Shown here: positions 4,731 through 40,316 of the stretch, piece by piece | Numbering within the stretch: position 1 is the stretch's first letter | Layout: every line of letters starts with the position of its first letter | Translations under genes and position numbers: made by a program | Notes under the pieces: model-generated | The model's database searches: none | What the model was told of the DNA's origin: nothing | What the model saw: the letters and a program-made list of their open reading frames with translations, nothing else | Virus record (IMG/VR): IMGVR_UViG_3300024343_000031 | Location: 1-41,822 of that record | Length of the DNA stretch: 41,822 bases | Source: a virus | Direction: 5' to 3' (one strand)

Positions 4731-4793
4731 ATGGAGGATTATATAATTGCTCGTAAAAACAAAAACGGTGAAATAACCTTAATAGAAGATTAA
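4731..4793 (+). CDS. 20-aa ORF between SSB and primase
   Basis: ATG directly follows the SSB stop. It encodes MEDYIIARKNKNGEITLIED and ends TAATG, where the final A of the stop is the first base of the primase start codon. It may be a genuine micro-gene or simply a translational relay that carries ribosomes from the SSB gene to the primase. The exact fit between both neighbours argues for use of the frame. No function can be proposed. Confidence 0.4.
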   Translation: MEDYIIARKNKNGEITLIED

Positions 4794-6502
4794 TGCAAAC
4801 AAGTGAGATCAATGGATTCTTGATTGATGATTTCAATCAATATGGTCTAGCTGAAGGTAAACCACAGGGGACTTGTCCCTTGTGTTCTTCTGATAGACAA
4901 CCTAAAAACCAAAAAGCACAATGTGCTTCTTATGATTGGGAACGTGGTCTCGGTACTTGCCATAATTGTAACACTAGCTTTCAACTACATACTTATCAAC
5001 GTAAAGGTGCTTCTGAAAAAGTCTATATAAGACCAGACACGCCTACTGTGCAAAAAGTAAGTACTAAAGTTGAAGACTGGTTTAGTACAAGAGGAATTAC
5101 TCAGAAAACCCTTCAAGATCTTAAGATCGGCGAGGGTCCAGAGTACATGCCACAAACCGGTAAAACCGAGAACGTTATAAAGTTCAATTATTTTATTGGC
5201 GATCAACTTATCAATGTTAAGTATCGCGATGGAAGAAAAAACTTTAAATTGTATAAGGGCGCTGAGAAAGTCTTTTATAATATAAACAGTATAATTGGTT
5301 ACGACCAATGCATTATAGTAGAAGGCGAAATGGATGTGTTAGCACTTCATGAAGCTGGCATACCTAATTCAATATCTGTACCTAACGGAGCTACATTAAA
5401 CAGTAACAATTTAGATTACTTAGATGCTTGTATTGATTACTTTGAAGATAAAGAAAGAATAATATTAGCTGTTGATGCGGACGAAGCTGGTCAAGCTTTG
5501 CAACAAGAACTTATAAGAAGACTTGGTGCTGAAGTTTGTTTTTTAGCTTCATTTGATGACTGTAAAGACGCAAATGAATATTTACTTAAACATGGAAAAG
5601 AAAAACTGGCAGAGTGTATTACCGGAGCGAGACCAGTACCGCTTGAGAATGTCACAACATTTAAAGATATCGAAGGTGAGATTACGGACTTTGTTCGTAA
5701 TGGTTTTAAACCAGGATTTCAAGTTGGCCTACAGAATTTCGACGACATATTTTCGACTTACACTGGTCAATTCATTACTGTCACTGGTATTCCGTCTAGC
5801 GGTAAATCGGATTTTGTCGATCAAATGGTTGTTGGGTATAACCAAAACTATGGCTGGAAAACGGCGTTTGCTTCACCTGAGAATGCACCAACTTATTTGC
5901 ACGCACATAAAATAATGCGTAAAGTTTGGCAAGGTATGCCAAGTGCTTCAGATATTCATGGAGATAAATGGAATCAAATTGCTGATCACGTTAATGAAAA
6001 CTTCTATCATATAGATATGGAACGTTATACTTTAGAATCAGTGCTACGTAAAGGCGCTGAGTTAGTTAAACGTAAAGGTATTAAATGTTTAGTTATTGAT
6101 CCATTTAATAAAGTTAGAGATGTTGACTGTAAAACTGAAGACGTTAACAGATATACTATGGAATATCTAAGTAAGATAGAAATATTTGCTAAGAAATTTG
6201 ATGTATTAGTATTTATAGTTGCTCACCCTACTAAAATGTATAAAGATGGAAATGGTAAAATTGAAGAACCAACTATGTATAACATTAAAGGTGGTGGCGA
6301 ATGGTATGATGCTAGCTATCATGGTATACTTGTACATCGTGACTATGAAAATAGGACAGTTAAGGCAAAAGTTCTCAAAGTCAAATTCCAAAACTTAGGT
6401 GAGAACGGTGCTGAAGCTCATTTTAAATGGGAACCTAAATCAGGTTGTTTTGTGCCTCACGAGCCTGTAGATATGTCTAACGAACCTATGCCCTGGGAAT
6501 GA
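4793..6502 (+). CDS. Primase-helicase (T7 gp4/Twinkle type)
   Basis: Synthesises primers and unwinds DNA at the phage replication fork. The N-terminal zinc ribbon has Cys28, Cys31, Cys56 and Cys59. The TOPRIM domain has the catalytic Glu178 (IVEGEMD) and the Asp228/Asp230 pair (VDADEAG). The RecA-like DnaB-family helicase core has Walker A GIPSSGKS (332-339), Walker B LVIDPF with Asp436, and a sensor histidine in VAHPT (His478). Length 569 aa matches T7 gp4. The start is in a TAATG overlap with the 20-aa frame, and the stop overlaps the next gene by 4 nt. Its partner DNA polymerase is not in this window. Confidence 0.95.
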   Translation: MQTSEINGFLIDDFNQYGLAEGKPQGTCPLCSSDRQPKNQKAQCASYDWERGLGTCHNCNTSFQLHTYQRKGASEKVYIRPDTPTVQKVSTKVEDWFSTRGITQKTLQDLKIGEGPEYMPQTGKTENVIKFNYFIGDQLINVKYRDGRKNFKLYKGAEKVFYNINSIIGYDQCIIVEGEMDVLALHEAGIPNSISVPNGATLNSNNLDYLDACIDYFEDKERIILAVDADEAGQALQQELIRRLGAEVCFLASFDDCKDANEYLLKHGKEKLAECITGARPVPLENVTTFKDIEGEITDFVRNGFKPGFQVGLQNFDDIFSTYTGQFITVTGIPSSGKSDFVDQMVVGYNQNYGWKTAFASPENAPTYLHAHKIMRKVWQGMPSASDIHGDKWNQIADHVNENFYHIDMERYTLESVLRKGAELVKRKGIKCLVIDPFNKVRDVDCKTEDVNRYTMEYLSKIEIFAKKFDVLVFIVAHPTKMYKDGNGKIEEPTMYNIKGGGEWYDASYHGILVHRDYENRTVKAKVLKVKFQNLGENGAEAHFKWEPKSGCFVPHEPVDMSNEPMPWE

Positions 6503-6780
6503 GCGTAGGATCTAAAAAAGCTAAAGAACAGGCTAAAAGAAGATTACCAGACAACTACATACAATCAAAAGAAGAGGAAAAAGCTTACTTATACTGTGTT
6601 AAAAACAATATAATAATAAGTCCTGTAGCCGTTAAAGACATGATAGGTTCTTGGGCTGTAGGTATAAGTCTTCCAGGCAAACACAAAACAGTTCATAATT
6701 CTCCTGAAATATGTGATAAACACAGCATAATGGAGATAATGTATAGGTATTGTATATATTATTATAACAAAAGAAAATAA
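6499..6780 (+). CDS. 93-aa conserved-looking hypothetical protein
   Basis: Starts in an ATGA overlap with the primase-helicase and ends in a TAATG overlap with the hydroxymethylase gene. The N-terminus is Lys-rich and helical (SKKAKEQAKRR). A central beta-rich part follows (AVKDMIGSWAVGISLPGK), then a Tyr-rich C-terminal helix with two cysteines. The pattern, basic helix followed by a small domain, recalls small phage proteins next to primase-helicases, but I cannot name the family. Tight coupling on both sides supports it being a real gene of the replication/nucleotide block. Confidence 0.7.
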   Translation: MSVGSKKAKEQAKRRLPDNYIQSKEEEKAYLYCVKNNIIISPVAVKDMIGSWAVGISLPGKHKTVHNSPEICDKHSIMEIMYRYCIYYYNKRK

Positions 6781-7430
6781 TGAAAACAAAATTTTATAAT
6801 GCGAGAGAAGCTTTTATTTATTTTTACAATGAGATTAATTCCAATGGTGTTATATTTGGAGATACTAAAGCTTTGTTTAACGTAGGTTTTACTTTAGAAA
6901 ATCCAAGTAAAAAGAATATCAATGTTTTAAATCCAAATCGTAAATTTAATTTAGAGTATGCAGAGGCTGAGTGGCAATGGTACTTGTCTGGAGATCCTAG
7001 TATAGATAAATTAGGTGAGATAAACGGTAGCATTCCTCCTATATGGGAAAATATGGCTGACTCTGATAGAAAAGTAAGATCTAACTATGGTTGGCAATGG
7101 GAACGTAATCATCAGCTAGACAAAGTTGTTGCAATGTTAAAAAGTAATCCTGAAACGCGTCAGGCAGTGATATCAATATATGATGGAAAAGAAATATCAA
7201 CTTACCGTAAAGATACTCCTTGCACTTATGCTGTTCAGTTCACTGTACTTGATAATAAACTACACATGGCAGTACTTATGCGTAGTAATGATCTCTGGTT
7301 TGGCTTTTGTAATGATCAATACTGTTTTGCGTCGCTTCAGGAATTAGTTGCAGAGAGGCTATCTATTGAGCTAGGAACTTATTATCATTTTGCACATAAC
7401 TTACATTTATACAATAACAAATTAAAATAA
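6780..7430 (+). CDS. dCMP hydroxymethylase-like enzyme (thymidylate synthase fold)
   Basis: Transfers a one-carbon unit from methylene-tetrahydrofolate to a pyrimidine nucleotide. The TS fold is clear: SNYGW (101-105), catalytic Cys148 in DTPCT, and MRSND (167-171). The discriminating segment FGFCNDQY places Asp179 where thymidylate synthases have the dUMP-reading Asn. From memory, T4 gp42 has the closely similar MRSND...FGFRND with Cys148 and Asp179, which selects dCMP. I therefore favour 5-hydroxymethyl-dCMP synthesis over dTMP synthesis. At 216 aa it is a little shorter than T4 gp42 (246). It starts in TAATG coupling and is followed by a MazG-domain protein that could supply dCMP. A divergent thymidylate synthase remains possible. 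Confidence 0.75.
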   Translation: MKTKFYNAREAFIYFYNEINSNGVIFGDTKALFNVGFTLENPSKKNINVLNPNRKFNLEYAEAEWQWYLSGDPSIDKLGEINGSIPPIWENMADSDRKVRSNYGWQWERNHQLDKVVAMLKSNPETRQAVISIYDGKEISTYRKDTPCTYAVQFTVLDNKLHMAVLMRSNDLWFGFCNDQYCFASLQELVAERLSIELGTYYHFAHNLHLYNNKLK

Positions 7431-7435
7431 AAATT

Positions 7436-8200
7436 ATGTATTATTTATACCATATTCCAGGTAAAAAAATAGGTGTAACAAGTAATCTTAATAACAGAGT
7501 AACGCTTATCCAAGGATATAAAGCAGACGAATACGAGGTTCTTGATTCTAGTGATGATATAGATTATATATCAGACAAGGAGATAGAACTTCAAAAGTCT
7601 TATGGCTACAAGGTTGATAGGCAAAAATACAATCAATTAATTAAAAAATCTAATCGAATGAAAATAAACGCTACTGAGCAAACGTCTACGTTTCCTTATC
7701 CAGTAAACAAACTGAAAGGTAATTTAATGGACAATATAGGGACATCATGGGAAACATCTCACGGTACTTTTGAGATAACCACTGAATCTATAAACTGGAT
7801 CATGGCTAATGTTAAATCATCAATGTATAATGATAAAAGATCTTACGTGTACAATAAAGCTTTTTCTTATGCTTTTGACGAAGTAATTGAAACAGCACCC
7901 GTAATTGAACAATTTCAGCTAATAAGAGAGTGGGCTGACAATAGGGGCTTATACTCTAAAGGTGATGCTAAAACTCAGTATATTAAACTACAAGAAGAAG
8001 CTGGTGAATTAGCTCAAGCGATACTTAAAGACGATCAACCAGAAGTTATAGATGCTATAGGTGATATGGTTGTTGTTTTAACTAACTTAGCTCATTTAAG
8101 AGGCGTTAGTATTGAGCACTGCATTGAGTCTGCTTACGATGTTATTAACAAAAGAAAAGGTTCAATGGTTAATGGAACTTTCGTTAAAGAAACTTTATAA
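7436..8200 (+). CDS. GIY-YIG-like/MazG-like fusion protein
   Basis: 254 residues in two parts. The C-terminal part (about 155-245) has the MazG all-alpha NTP pyrophosphohydrolase motif: Glu187-Glu188-x2-Glu191, then Glu203-x2-Asp206, which bind Mg and hydrolyse NTP to NMP plus PPi. The N-terminal 70 residues (LYHIPGKKIGVTSNLNNRV, then an acidic stretch and DKEIELQKSYGYKVD) resemble a GIY-YIG-type fold with an Arg (21) and a Glu (49 or 51) in roughly the expected places. The first Tyr motif is degenerate, so nuclease activity is doubtful. The linker is about 80 residues. Lying after the hydroxymethylase, the MazG part may convert dCTP to dCMP, as T4 gp56 does functionally; this is inference. 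Confidence 0.7.
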   Translation: MYYLYHIPGKKIGVTSNLNNRVTLIQGYKADEYEVLDSSDDIDYISDKEIELQKSYGYKVDRQKYNQLIKKSNRMKINATEQTSTFPYPVNKLKGNLMDNIGTSWETSHGTFEITTESINWIMANVKSSMYNDKRSYVYNKAFSYAFDEVIETAPVIEQFQLIREWADNRGLYSKGDAKTQYIKLQEEAGELAQAILKDDQPEVIDAIGDMVVVLTNLAHLRGVSIEHCIESAYDVINKRKGSMVNGTFVKETL

Positions 8201-8559
8201 TGATAATAGAAACTAAAGACGAAATAGTACAAGCTGTACTCCATAAGATGGATCAACGAAGCTTAATAGGTCAAAAAAAGTATGGTGCAACTATGATGCA
8301 AGAGATTGTAGGTCAAGAAAAAGATCTTAATAGATTTTTAATTGATGTACAAGAAGAGCTTATGGATGCGCTACTTTACATAGAAGCAGCTAAGCGTTGT
8401 TTAGCTGATGAAGTTGAAGAAGCTATGTTAAATCGTATTAACGTAGAGTATGACAAAGTGTCACCTTGCTCTGCTCATGCTTTCGAAGAGGATGATGAAC
8501 GTATGAATATAATAGCTCAAAACGGAAACACAGGAGAACACTATGAAAAAACCTTATAA
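8200..8559 (+). CDS. Short MazG-like helical protein
   Basis: 119 residues starting in a TAATG overlap with the MazG fusion. The helical core (about residues 5-75) contains GQKKYGATM, a long helix and EELMDALLYIEAAKR. This acidic pattern is typical of small MazG/dUTPase-like NTP pyrophosphohydrolases in phages. The last 40 residues are acidic and probably disordered. It may act with the preceding gene in cleaning or shaping the dNTP pool. The catalytic set is less complete than in the neighbour, so a structural or regulatory relative is possible. Its stop overlaps the endonuclease start by 17 nt. Confidence 0.6.
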   Translation: MIIETKDEIVQAVLHKMDQRSLIGQKKYGATMMQEIVGQEKDLNRFLIDVQEELMDALLYIEAAKRCLADEVEEAMLNRINVEYDKVSPCSAHAFEEDDERMNIIAQNGNTGEHYEKTL

Positions 8560-8992
8560 AAGAAAAAAAGGTCCTGTTCAGTCTAAAAAAGTTTCTTACG
8601 ATGGTATAAACTTTGCTTCAGGACTTGAACGATATATGTATATGGCTCTTAGAAAAGCCAAGATTAAAGCTAAATATGAAGGTGAAACTTTTGTTTTGTT
8701 AAATGGTTTTCATTTTGAAAACGAATGCTATGAAAGACAAGCTAATGGTAAAGGTGATTATACTAACAGAGGTAGTAAAAGAATACTACCTATAAAGTAT
8801 ACGCCTGATTTTATTGGCCAAGACTTTATAATAGAAACAAAAGGTAGAGCTAATGAATCTTTTCCAATGCGATGGAAATTATTCAAGCAATTGGTAACTA
8901 ATCAATTTCCTAGCTATACATTATACAAACCTCAAAACCAAAAAGAATGCGATATAACGGTAGAGTTAATCCTCGAGAAGCTAAAAGCGTAG
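8543..8992 (+). CDS. PD-(D/E)XK endonuclease (DUF1064/T7 endonuclease I-like)
   Basis: Predicted branched-DNA or Holliday-junction nuclease that clears recombination and replication intermediates before packaging. Motifs in order: a basic N-terminus, FASGLERYMYMAL with the helical Glu, YTPDFIG with the catalytic Asp, IIETKG with the Glu-x-Lys pair, then a basic helix (MRWKLFK). 149 aa equals T7 endonuclease I in size. It overlaps both neighbours, upstream by 17 nt and downstream by 46 nt. Confidence 0.82.
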   Translation: MKKPYKRKKGPVQSKKVSYDGINFASGLERYMYMALRKAKIKAKYEGETFVLLNGFHFENECYERQANGKGDYTNRGSKRILPIKYTPDFIGQDFIIETKGRANESFPMRWKLFKQLVTNQFPSYTLYKPQNQKECDITVELILEKLKA

Positions 8993-9120: not shown

Positions 9121-9253
9121 AAATTGGGAAATTACAATAGGGTTTTACCCTGGAATATTAATAGGCATTAGAACCTACGAAGAAAAGCTATTTAATGAAC
9201 ATGTGCTGTATCTACCTTTTTGCATAGATATAGCTTTAAAAATTGATAAATAA
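9113..9253 (+). CDS. 46-aa small protein upstream of RNR
   Basis: Starts within the previous gene (8-nt overlap) and ends in TAATG shared with the ribonucleotide reductase small subunit. The pattern NWEITIGFYPGILIGIRTY, then HVLYLPFCIDIALKID, is beta-strand-like and hydrophobic. It reminds me of a small uncharacterised protein seen beside nucleotide-metabolism genes in aquatic phages; this is from memory and unverified. There is no classic transmembrane segment. Fit and coupling support coding. Confidence 0.6.
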   Translation: MSRNWEITIGFYPGILIGIRTYEEKLFNEHVLYLPFCIDIALKIDK

Positions 9254-10221
9254 TGGGATTATTTGATGAAAGAATAGCCTACAAGCCTTTTGAGTACCCA
9301 GAGTACTACACAGAGGGTTGGCTAAAACAGGCTCAAGCCTTTTGGTTACACACTGAAATACCAATGTCAGGTGATCTTAAAGACTGGAATGAAAAATTAA
9401 CTAAAGAAGAAAAAAACTTAGTAGGTAATATCCTGCTAGGTTTTGCTCAAACAGAATGTGCTGTGTCTGATTACTGGACACAAAACGTAGTTGGTTGGTT
9501 TCCAAAACATGAAATACAACAAATGGCTATGATGTTTGGTTCACAAGAAACTATACACGCAGTTGCTTATAGTTATTTAAACGAAACATTAGGACTAGAA
9601 AATTATGAAGCATTTTTACACGAACCAACCACGGCGGAGCGCTTCGATAACCTTGTTAGTTACACTGGCTCTGACCCTCGTGGGATTGGCAGGTCTATCG
9701 CTATTTTTTCTGCATTTGCAGAAGGCGTATCTTTGTATTCCGCTTTTGCTGTGTTATATAGTTTTCAGCTTCGTAATTTGCTTAAAGGCATTGGCCAACA
9801 GATGAAATGGTCTGTAAGAGATGAATCTCTTCATAGTAAAATGGGCTGTAGATTATTCAGACATATGTGCGAAGAAGATGAAACTCTTTTAAACGAATGC
9901 AGAGAAGATGTTGTAACAGCAGCAACAACAATGCTAGTAGCTGAAGAAGCGTATATTGATAAGATGTTTGAAATGGGCGACATAGAAGGCATTAAAGCTT
10001 ATGACTTAAAACAATTCATTAGAAAAAGATTAAATGAAAAACTTACAGAACTCGGTTACTTCGACCTCGGGCAATACTTTGCTTACGACGAGTCAGGATC
10101 AAATAACCTCAACTGGTTTTACCACCTTACAGGCGGGCATACTCATACTGATTTTTTCGCTGTTCGTCCTACTGATTACTCGAAAGCGGGTGAAGGAGAA
10201 GATTTTGAAGATATTTGGTAA
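9253..10221 (+). CDS. nrdB: Ribonucleotide reductase class I, small (radical) subunit
   Basis: Generates the radical needed by NrdA to reduce ribonucleotides. Ferritin-like ligands by position: Glu68, Glu99, His102, Glu157, Glu191 and His194 (QETIH and RDESLH). The radical tyrosine is Tyr106, four residues after His102, as in E. coli Tyr122. The first ligand is Glu rather than the usual Asp: the 31-residue spacing Glu68-Glu99 equals Asp84-Glu115 of E. coli. The acidic C-terminus (EGEDFEDIW) would dock into NrdA. 322 aa is slightly short for NrdB. It is translationally coupled upstream (TAATG), and nrdA lies about 650 bp downstream with four small genes between. Confidence 0.94.
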   Translation: MGLFDERIAYKPFEYPEYYTEGWLKQAQAFWLHTEIPMSGDLKDWNEKLTKEEKNLVGNILLGFAQTECAVSDYWTQNVVGWFPKHEIQQMAMMFGSQETIHAVAYSYLNETLGLENYEAFLHEPTTAERFDNLVSYTGSDPRGIGRSIAIFSAFAEGVSLYSAFAVLYSFQLRNLLKGIGQQMKWSVRDESLHSKMGCRLFRHMCEEDETLLNECREDVVTAATTMLVAEEAYIDKMFEMGDIEGIKAYDLKQFIRKRLNEKLTELGYFDLGQYFAYDESGSNNLNWFYHLTGGHTHTDFFAVRPTDYSKAGEGEDFEDIW

Positions 10222-10643: not shown

Positions 10644-10889
10644 ATGAAAGAAAGTATATTAATTGAAATGCGTAACAAGGTTGATGCATTAACAAGAGTA
10701 ATACAGCAAATTATTTACGATATAAATGAAACTAAAGATTTATCTAGAGGAACTTTAGAGGTTTTAAAAAAGCTTCCAGGTTATAAAAAAGCTGTTGATG
10801 AACTTAAAACAGAAATAGAAAAAGTACAAAAGATTAAAAAAACAGCAGAAGTTAAACAAGAGAAAAAACTAGATTTAAATGTGGAATAA
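10644..10889 (+). CDS. 81-aa coiled-coil hypothetical protein
   Basis: Almost entirely helical and highly charged. Heptad-like spacing of aliphatic residues runs through residues 1-35 and 45-70, with a Lys/Glu-rich tail. It overlaps the nrdA start by 11 nt. No motif indicates function; an oligomeric adaptor is conceivable. Confidence 0.6.
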   Translation: MKESILIEMRNKVDALTRVIQQIIYDINETKDLSRGTLEVLKKLPGYKKAVDELKTEIEKVQKIKKTAEVKQEKKLDLNVE

Positions 10890-12600
10890 TGAGTGGATCA
10901 AAGGACAAGATTACCCAGAGTGGGGAGAAACAGAAGTATACAAGAAAACTATATCCGGGGGATATTTACTTAACGGAGAAACCCCGAGAGACGCCTACAA
11001 CAGAGTCTGCTCAACGGTGGCTAGACGATTGGATAAACCAGAACTTTCAGAAACGTTCTTCAAATATATTTGGAAAGGATGGCTTTGTCTCGCCAGTCCC
11101 GTTCTCAGTAATACTGGTACCGATCGTGGGCTTCCTATTAGTTGCTTTGGTATTGATGTTGCTGATAGCATAAATGATATAGGCAAAAAAAATTTAGAGA
11201 TGATGCTACTCGCTAAGCATGGCGGCGGAGTTGGTATTGGTATTAATCAAATAAGACCTGCTGGAGCTAAAATAAAAGGTAATGGAACATCTGATGGAGT
11301 GGTGCCGTTTTGCAAAATCTACGATTCAACAATACTTGCCACTAATCAAGGATCTGTCCGCCGCGGAGCTGCATCAGTTAACATCAATATTGATCACCCC
11401 GACTTTGAAGAATGGCTGGAGATCAGAGAACCTAAAGGAGACGTTAATAGACAATCACTCAATCTACACCAGTGCGCTGTGGTCGGTGACAAGTTTATGC
11501 GAAGACTTGAGCAAGGAAATCAAGAAGCTAGACGTAAATGGGGAAGACTACTTCAAAAACGTAAAGCAACTGGAGAGCCTTATATACTCTTTAAAGGAAA
11601 TACAAACAAAAACAACCCAGAAGCATACAAGCAAAATGGATTAAAAGTTCATATGACTAATATATGTAGCGAGATAACTCTACATACTGATGAAAGTCAT
11701 AGCTTTGTCTGTTGCTTGTCTAGCTTAAACCTAGCTAAATACGATGAGTGGAAAGATACTAATATTATTTATGATGCTATCTGGTTTCTTGATGGCGTAC
11801 TTGAAGAATTTATCCAAAGAGCCAAAGGAAAAATTGGGTTTGAAAACTCTGTTAGATCTGCAGAAAAAGGTAGAGCACTTGGACTCGGAGCTCTTGGCTG
11901 GCATACTTACCTTCAGGAAAAAGGATTACCGTTTGAAGGTTTATTATCTCAGTTTGAGACTAGAAAGATTTTTAGTCAAATTAAAATTGAAAGCGAAAGA
12001 GCTTCAATGGACCTTGCTGAGGTTTTTGGTGAACCACTTTGGTGTGTCGGTACTGGTATGCGCAACACCCACCTTAGGGCTATTGCTCCAACAGTATCAA
12101 ATTCAAAACTATCCGGCAATGTTAGCCCTGGTATTGAACCTTGGGCTGCTAATGTCTTTACTGAACAATCAGCGAAAGGAACGTTCATAAGAAAAAACCC
12201 AACACTTGAATCTGTTTTAAGTGACTGTGGTTTAGACAATGAAGAAACTTGGGCTAAGATATTAGAAGATGGAGGCTCAGTGCAAGGAATTAAAAAGTTA
12301 GATGATATACTTATGGGCGACCACGATATACCCGCTAAAGACGTTTTTAAAACTTTTAAAGAAATCAATCAATTGGAATTAGTGAATCAAGCTGGCCTTA
12401 GGCAACAGTACATTGATCAGTCAGTTAGTCTTAACCTTGCGTTTCCTTCAGAAGCAACACCTAAATGGATTAATCAAGTTCACATGGATGCATGGAAAAA
12501 AGGCGTAAAAACACTTTATTATGTCAGAACCGAAAGCGTCTTACGTGGTGATATTGCCGCAAGCGCTATGGATCCTTCTTGTGTATCTTGTGATGGTTAA
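10879..12600 (+). CDS. nrdA: Ribonucleotide reductase class I, large (catalytic) subunit
   Basis: Reduces ribonucleotides to deoxyribonucleotides for phage DNA synthesis. Active-site residues by motif: Cys89 in LPISC, Asn261-x-Cys263-x-Glu265 in TNICSEI, a cysteine in FVCCLSSLN (Cys278/279), and the tyrosine pair in LYYVRTES. The C-terminal Cys568-x2-Cys571 pair exchanges with thioredoxin or glutaredoxin. At 573 aa it is shorter than bacterial NrdA (about 760). The N-terminus starts directly in the catalytic barrel, with no room for the roughly 90-residue ATP cone, so dATP shut-off should be absent. It is the last gene of the rightward block, followed by the convergent terminator. Confidence 0.95.
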   Translation: MWNNEWIKGQDYPEWGETEVYKKTISGGYLLNGETPRDAYNRVCSTVARRLDKPELSETFFKYIWKGWLCLASPVLSNTGTDRGLPISCFGIDVADSINDIGKKNLEMMLLAKHGGGVGIGINQIRPAGAKIKGNGTSDGVVPFCKIYDSTILATNQGSVRRGAASVNINIDHPDFEEWLEIREPKGDVNRQSLNLHQCAVVGDKFMRRLEQGNQEARRKWGRLLQKRKATGEPYILFKGNTNKNNPEAYKQNGLKVHMTNICSEITLHTDESHSFVCCLSSLNLAKYDEWKDTNIIYDAIWFLDGVLEEFIQRAKGKIGFENSVRSAEKGRALGLGALGWHTYLQEKGLPFEGLLSQFETRKIFSQIKIESERASMDLAEVFGEPLWCVGTGMRNTHLRAIAPTVSNSKLSGNVSPGIEPWAANVFTEQSAKGTFIRKNPTLESVLSDCGLDNEETWAKILEDGGSVQGIKKLDDILMGDHDIPAKDVFKTFKEINQLELVNQAGLRQQYIDQSVSLNLAFPSEATPKWINQVHMDAWKKGVKTLYYVRTESVLRGDIAASAMDPSCVSCDG

Positions 12601-39494: not shown

Positions 39495-39766
39495 TACTTA
39501 GATCTTCCTTCGGCAAAACCCTTAAAAGACTCAACTTGAGTTTTTACTGGCTTTTCATTTATTATATTTTCTTCAGCTTCTATTCTAGCTAGTATTTCAA
39601 AAGCATCAAATATTGCTAATTTTTTAGTAGCAGCAGCGTTTTTAAGTCTATCAGCCGAGATATCATCTTCTGAGTCTACAATCTTTTCTTTCGCTACTTT
39701 TATAAGTTCTTCAACTGCTATTTGCCCAGCTTGGATTATATTCAGTTTCGTTTCCTTTATTTTCAT
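39494..39766 (-). CDS. Terminase small subunit-like protein
   Basis: 90 residues, helical, with an N-terminal basic segment and a central helix pair (IIQAGQIAVEELIKVAKEKI, then ADRLKNAAATKKLAIFDAFEIL). Size and gene order (directly before TerL, TAATG overlap) fit a small terminase that selects DNA ends. The N-terminal 56 nt overlap the 3' end of the Cpn10-like gene. No clear DNA-binding HTH is visible, so the assignment rests on context. Confidence 0.65.
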   Translation of the reverse strand: MKIKETKLNIIQAGQIAVEELIKVAKEKIVDSEDDISADRLKNAAATKKLAIFDAFEILARIEAEENIINEKPVKTQVESFKGFAEGRSK

Positions 39767-40316
39767 ACTTAATTAAAATATCATTTGATTGCATACAATA
39801 AAGTACCTCACCGTCAATTAAGAACTCAAATTCTCTGTTCTTTTTAAATCCGACTAAATCTCCATTGTTGATTTTAAGAGCTTCTAAGGTGCTATTATTA
39901 TATTTTACTATACCAACGCACTTTTTAAGCTTACTTAAGTTAGAATCATCCTTATTAACCACAGGCTTAACAAAGCAGTAGTTGTCTAGAGTTTCCCAAG
40001 AGTTATTACTCTTTTTCATATACACTTGATCTATAGAGGCAAAACACATATCATCTTTAAAAAACTTTGTGCTATTAACTGACTTACCTTTTAAATCATA
40101 GTATCTTCTAAATAGATTGTGATGAACTATAACTCTATCGCCTTTTTTTAACTTAGTTTTATAAGCTAATGGCGTGGCTATTATTTCTGCTTCTCTATTT
40201 ACAAACTTATGGTCAGAGATACTAGAATTAACTATTAGCTTTTTATCACCAATAGTTATTTCATTATTATATCTTTCACCTATAGGTTTTACTATAAACT
40301 GGTGAACACTATTCAT
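39711..40316 (-). CDS. Tandem co-chaperonin (GroES/gp31)-like protein
   Basis: 201 residues with two segments resembling the Cpn10 beta-barrel. The first (about 15-115) has GDKKLIVNSSISDHKF in a mobile-loop-like position, then LKKGDRVIVHHNLFRRYYD, the GD-V hallmark. The second (about 135-185) has GIVKYNN, then INNGDLVGFKKNREFEFLI, DGEVLYCM and DILIKYE, again the GroES order. It could replace host GroES for folding of the capsid protein, as T4 gp31 does. Its neighbours in the packaging/head operon support this. The fold is inferred from pattern and needs structural confirmation. Confidence 0.65.
   Translation of the reverse strand: MNSVHQFIVKPIGERYNNEITIGDKKLIVNSSISDHKFVNREAEIIATPLAYKTKLKKGDRVIVHHNLFRRYYDLKGKSVNSTKFFKDDMCFASIDQVYMKKSNNSWETLDNYCFVKPVVNKDDSNLSKLKKCVGIVKYNNSTLEALKINNGDLVGFKKNREFEFLIDGEVLYCMQSNDILIKYENKGNETEYNPSWANSS

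Follow-up and report, generated by a model that had tools for sequence, protein, structure and literature searches.

The window analyzed in this study is a whole stretch of 41,822 nucleotides from an uncultured phage (IMG/VR record IMGVR_UViG_3300024343_000031, positions 1–41,822), and it raises the question of what reaction is catalyzed by the product of an open reading frame at positions 6780–7430, which Pfam and PHROG label thymidylate synthase (TS). The residue pattern, relatives and neighborhood of this TS-like protein indicate that it is very probably a dCMP hydroxymethylase of the T4 gp42 type, as the initial annotation had proposed. We assign a probability of about 0.7 to the whole explanation, in which a gp42-type enzyme, supplied through dCTP hydrolysis by a MazG protein, would lead to the replacement of dC by 5-hydroxymethyl-dC (hm-dC) and thereby to protection of the phage DNA. 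Modules outside T4 that combine a TS carrying Asp177 with a pyrophosphohydrolase for cytosine modification are of an already known kind (T4 gp42/gp56; MetaGPA 2021, PMC8670742); what is new here is the lineage, the missing kinase and the fusion of MazG to an N-terminal GIY-YIG-like domain.

Source and Lineage of the Window

The source classes the window as a virus record with linear ends, probably a fragment. Close relatives reach up to 60–70 kb, two of which (66,084 and 65,441 bp) have terminal repeats consistent with completeness. The window terminase is 61.6% identical to that of podovirus MW202828 and approximately 45% identical to those of Flavobacterium elemo phages, and a host within Flavobacteriia is thus likely. 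At least 465 related stretches are present in IMG/VR, and the lineage is mostly marine. No cultured phage of the lineage carrying the TS-like enzyme was found in the collections searched, in which the best isolate match was 46.6%, and a search with partial coverage of the literature found no paper on the TS-like/MazG pair in this lineage. Residue conservation was counted in the 80 closest IMG/VR relatives of the TS-like gene, and gene absence was searched in the window and 26 long relatives, the latter having one TS-family gene per genome. The window also encodes a GroES-like co-chaperonin (39711–40316); GroEL/GroES are annotated in MW202828 and the elemo phages, and size-matched ORFs are present in relatives. 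In one relative (G017), a gene at L097:14309-14824 codes for a protein resembling pyrimidine-dimer glycosylases (Pyr_excise, E 5e-5).

Organization of the Locus

The following genes are all on the plus strand. A Toprim primase/DnaB-like helicase gene (4793–6502) is the syntenic upstream neighbor, followed by a small ORF of 93 aa (6499–6780) that overlaps the start of the TS-like gene, has no family match and was detected in 43 of 80 loci. Downstream of the TS-like gene are a gene for a MazG/PRA-PH all-alpha NTP pyrophosphohydrolase of 254 aa (7436–8200), a small conserved ORF of 119 aa (8200–8559) syntenic in 70 of 80 loci, and a syntenic Holliday-junction-resolvase-like gene (DUF1064, 8543–8992). 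The phage's own ribonucleotide reductase, noted in the initial annotation, is indeed present as class I small (9253–10221) and large (10879–12600) subunit genes and could feed dNTP synthesis.

Active-Site Residues of the TS-Like Protein

The 216-aa protein belongs to the TS family (PF00303, E 6e-27). Its Cys148 and Asp179, both pointed out previously, align with Cys148 and Asp179 of gp42 and with Cys146 and Asn177 of Escherichia coli TS, and Thr149 is common to the window protein and gp42. Ser101, Tyr103 and Asp145 correspond to the gp42 hydroxymethylation residues S94, Y96 and D145, and Glu64 to the folate-activating E60. Equivalents of gp42 Arg123, Ser169, His216 and Tyr218 are also present, and the segment MRSNDLWFGFCND matches gp42 MRSNDVVFGFRND, in agreement with the gp42-like segments described earlier. 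The phosphate ligand Arg124 of gp42 is replaced by Gln or His in the window family. The protein stops 5 residues past the H-x-Y motif (4–18 across the family) and therefore has no TS C-terminal tail. Mutants of gp42 at S94, Y96 or D145 are strongly impaired, and the absent tail is a feature of dCMP hydroxymethylases (PMC6400193); in phage metagenomes, the TS positions most strongly associated with modified cytosine are Asp177 and residue 147 (PMC8670742).

The signature residues of the gp42 type, including the Ser, Tyr and Asp above, Cys148, Thr149, Glu64, Asp179 and the equivalents of Arg123, Ser169, His216 and Tyr218, are invariant in all 80 close relatives, and equivalents of E60, S94, Y96, D145, C148, T149, S169 and D179 are kept in 44/44 members of a more distant set. 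The TS-like gene has a dN/dS of approximately 0.07 relative to its closest relative, with dS near saturation. Together with the at least 465 related stretches, this value speaks against a chance observation.

This pattern makes it highly improbable that the enzyme is an ordinary TS or a dUMP hydroxymethylase, despite the name given by Pfam and PHROG. The window enzyme, like those of 80/80 close and 44/44 distant relatives, carries Asp in place of the dUMP-reading Asn; it also has Thr instead of His147 (E. coli numbering) and lacks the tail. In gp42 numbering, canonical TS controls have Leu145, His149, Asn179 and a long C-terminal tail, and hydroxymethyl-dU enzymes (ViI-like and SPO1-like, assigned by annotation or phage group) have Asp145 and Asn149 but not Asp179. 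T4 gp42 itself is short and has Asp145, Thr149, Asp179 and Glu60, and the window protein equals it at all of these positions.

A dCMP methylase like that of Xanthomonas phage Xp12, yielding 5-methyl-dCMP and 5-methylcytosine in phage DNA, is a more serious but still quite unlikely alternative. Lactobacillus casei TS N229D methylates dCMP (cited in PMC8670742), and the Xp12-group TS of phage AXL1, which has Asp179, adjoins a PF01503 pyrophosphohydrolase (TS at L131:8623-9564). However, the AXL1 enzyme, to which activity is assigned by way of Xp12, has Asn145, Pro149, a TS-length tail and a dihydrofolate reductase (DHFR) gene two genes away, whereas the window enzyme has D145 and T149 and is tail-less, and no DHFR was found in the 26 long relatives. 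This absence fits hydroxymethylation because the reaction returns tetrahydrofolate. The use of residue 145 to discriminate hydroxymethylation from methylation is based on a small reference set.

Predicted Fold, Sequence Matches and Phylogeny

The AlphaFold model of the enzyme is confident (pLDDT 90.3, pTM 0.88) and matches AfhB (Z 24.8), MilA (Z 24.4), gp42 (Z 21.9) and TS chains (Z up to 21.6). The suggested structural comparison with gp42 gives a close match, but TS chains score nearly as high; the fold alone does not separate AfhB, MilA, gp42 and TS, whereas the residues do. Sequence comparison with solved structures in the PDB places the CMP hydroxymethylase MilA first, and both MilA and T4 gp42 score above every TS.

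The top fold match, tied with MilA, raises the possibility of a flavin-dependent dCMP 5-hydroxylase of the phage HY126 AfhB/RB69p048 type, which would make 5-hydroxy-dC for arabinosylation. Like the window protein, AfhB is short, and it shares C148, T149 and D179. We consider this function very unlikely. AfhB, which is near-identical to RB69p048, lacks Glu60, Trp82 and Asp171 (E60 to Phe, W82 to Ile, D171 to Asn) and also differs by Y218 to Phe, S94 to Thr and D145 to Glu, whereas the window protein retains every one of these gp42 residues. AfhB also scores lower by sequence profile (81 bits, compared with 104 bits for gp42 and 128 bits for MilA), and neither of the glycosyltransferase types searched was found.

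MilA shares the cytosine signature and the fold with the window enzyme, but it functions in antibiotic biosynthesis and prefers ribonucleotides. The window has Ser169 and Arg127 where MilA has Ala176 and Lys133, and this conserved Ser and Arg fit a preference for deoxy-substrates (PMC5175136).

In the phylogenetic tree, which has some long branches, the window family joins gp42 with moderate support (83/81), apart from TS and the Xp12-type enzyme, and the latter, from AXL1, groups with ThyA at 99/97. These two positions suggest that Asp179 was probably gained repeatedly, and AXL1 points to a convergent gain of cytosine specificity. Bacteroides phage BF503P2 encodes a second TS-like paralogue (L002:17121-17927) that has D145, T149 and D179, but its catalytic Glu60 is replaced by Leu and its branch in the tree is very long.

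The MazG Protein and Its Linkage to the TS-Like Gene

The C-terminal approximately 100 aa of the 7436–8200 product form a MazG/PRA-PH domain (PF01503, 5e-7; PF03819, 4e-6) with the metal ligands EExxE...ExxD (E187, E188, E191, E203, D206 and D210), which are invariant in 35 relatives. Many MazG proteins match the product in fold, dCTPases among them, and hydrolysis of dCTP to dCMP is a likely reaction. Profile comparison by hhalign gave no link between T4 gp56 and the MazG family. The N-terminal approximately 70 aa (7436–7650), followed by a linker region, tentatively represent a GIY-YIG-like domain: the best matches in relatives are MUG113 (E 4.6e-4) and T5orf172 (0.018), and Y5, G13, R21 and E49 are invariant, although the YIG Tyr is replaced by Lys. 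No link of this domain to any solved structure was found. The initial annotation had named two MazG-like genes, of which the one at 7436–8200 stands; the ORF at 8200–8559 has no match above chance in Pfam, in PDB profiles or against the MazG family in hhalign (approximately 2% probability).

In all 80 close relatives, MazG comes next after the TS-like gene, with a median gap of -4 bp. In the distant D145/T149/D179 set, 27 of 44 contigs (11 of the 22 clusters formed at 70% identity) have a same-strand MazG no more than 2 kb away, versus 1 of 44 contigs of canonical phage TS controls, although the control contigs are longer. Each set includes related sequences, so the raw Fisher p of 8e-10 assumes more independence than the data have. 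In the distant set, MazG is mostly encoded by a short ORF of its own, often upstream, which indicates that the pair has persisted through rearrangement. A TS-like gene paired with a pyrophosphohydrolase gene recurs in AXL1 and in MW202510, and TS co-occurs with PF01503 on modified-cytosine phage contigs (PMC8670742). Functional pairing of the TS-like enzyme with the MazG pyrophosphohydrolase is well supported, and the linkage in close and distant relatives supports a route from dCTP through dCMP to hm-dCMP.

Predicted Pathway and Its Missing Parts

The gp42-type enzyme would use Cys148 to attack C6 of dCMP, with Asp179 recognizing and protonating the cytosine and Glu64 activating methylene-tetrahydrofolate. 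A water molecule held by Ser101, Tyr103 and Asp145 may then hydrate the methylene intermediate to give 5-hydroxymethyl-dCMP and tetrahydrofolate, there being no tail to exclude water. The adjacent MazG-domain protein would both supply dCMP and clear unmodified dCTP, like T4 gp56. Conversion of hm-dCMP to hm-dCTP would depend on kinases other than those recognized here, probably host enzymes or an uncharacterized phage protein, and hm-dCTP would replace dC in the phage DNA and may protect it from restriction. We infer that hm-dC or a derivative is probably present in virion DNA.

In T4, gp1 acts on hm-dCMP. Neither a kinase of this type (PF21448) nor a thymidylate kinase (PF02223) was found in any of the 26 long relatives, and across 12 scanned genomes the primase-helicase is the only P-loop protein of the conserved core. 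As the initial annotation had observed, no hm-dCMP kinase or glucosyltransferase is recognized in the window, nor were they found in the 26 relatives, where neither GT2 glycosyltransferase nor VPE25-type glucosyltransferase gave a match; the protein-query search among these was run without a positive control. This leaves a gap between hm-dCMP and DNA, and the absent kinase is the main weakness of the hm-dC reading. A family A DNA polymerase was likewise not found in the window and the 26 long relatives, despite the presence of primase-helicase, ligase and ribonucleotide reductase.

The missing kinase would also be consistent with a situation in which hm-dCMP were made for pool control and kept out of DNA, with MazG serving general house-cleaning or host-nucleotide recycling unrelated to modification. 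MazG proteins are also encoded by many phages for which no base modification is stated. We nevertheless regard this alternative as unlikely, because MazG is strongly linked to the window enzyme type and not to TS, and because the TS/PF01503 pair is associated with modified-cytosine contigs (PMC8670742).

A far-reaching extension of the hm-dC reading is that a widespread, mostly marine and probably flavobacterial lineage replaces dC by hm-dC through a minimal two-gene module, with no phage kinase, glycosyltransferase or polymerase of its own, and with host enzymes using hm-dCTP. The GIY-YIG–MazG fusion would then couple dCTP removal to cleavage of unmodified DNA, combining the jobs of T4 gp56 and endonuclease II in one protein. 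This full scenario is speculative and, taken together, rather improbable. If the hm-dC reading itself is true, whole-genome cytosine modification would be common in abundant uncultured, probably flavobacterial phages (more than 460 IMG/VR stretches), with a bearing on host range, defense evasion and methylation-sensitive metagenomics, and the missing kinase makes host phosphorylation and use of hm-dCMP directly testable.

Comparison With Known Systems

The T4 pair of gp42 and gp56 shares with the window the fold, residues E60, S94, Y96, D145, C148, T149 and D179, the tail-less end and a pyrophosphohydrolase to make dCMP. However, gp42 is only 27% identical to the window protein and has 28 residues after H-x-Y versus about 5, the window MazG is fused to a GIY-YIG-like domain and is not detectably related to gp56 by hhalign, and no gp1-type kinase, alpha/beta-glucosyltransferase or T4-like genome was found in the window lineage.

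Among isolates, the closest enzymes are those of Bacteroides phages BF503P2 and relatives, annotated as "deoxycytidylate 5-hydroxymethyltransferase", with 46.6% identity and all signature residues. Their genome and neighborhood are different (dUTPase and a second TS paralogue), and Pfam detected no MazG in the nine IMG/VR relatives closest to BF503P2. The enzymes of Enterococcus phage VPE25 and Lactobacillus phage ATCCB also share the signature residues (36–37% identity) but have a long C-terminal extension, and an annotated beta-glucosyltransferase follows directly or after dUTPase.

The MetaGPA clusters (eLife 2021, PMC8670742) combine Asp177 TS with PF01503 on contigs experimentally enriched for modified cytosine; those described there carry carbamoyltransferase and deaminase domains, and the window lineage is not named. 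Manatee Spring podovirus MW202510 encodes an NTP-PPase, an annotated kinase and a "pyrimidine hmase" in a row, the last a D145/D179 enzyme, but it belongs to another lineage and has an annotated thymidylate kinase, deaminase and DNA polymerase. A search with its enzyme as query returned one locus only. Cellulophaga phage phi10:1, which has a related primase-helicase, carries DNA methylases and MazG (L299:9114-10640) at the position of the window's TS-like gene and MazG.
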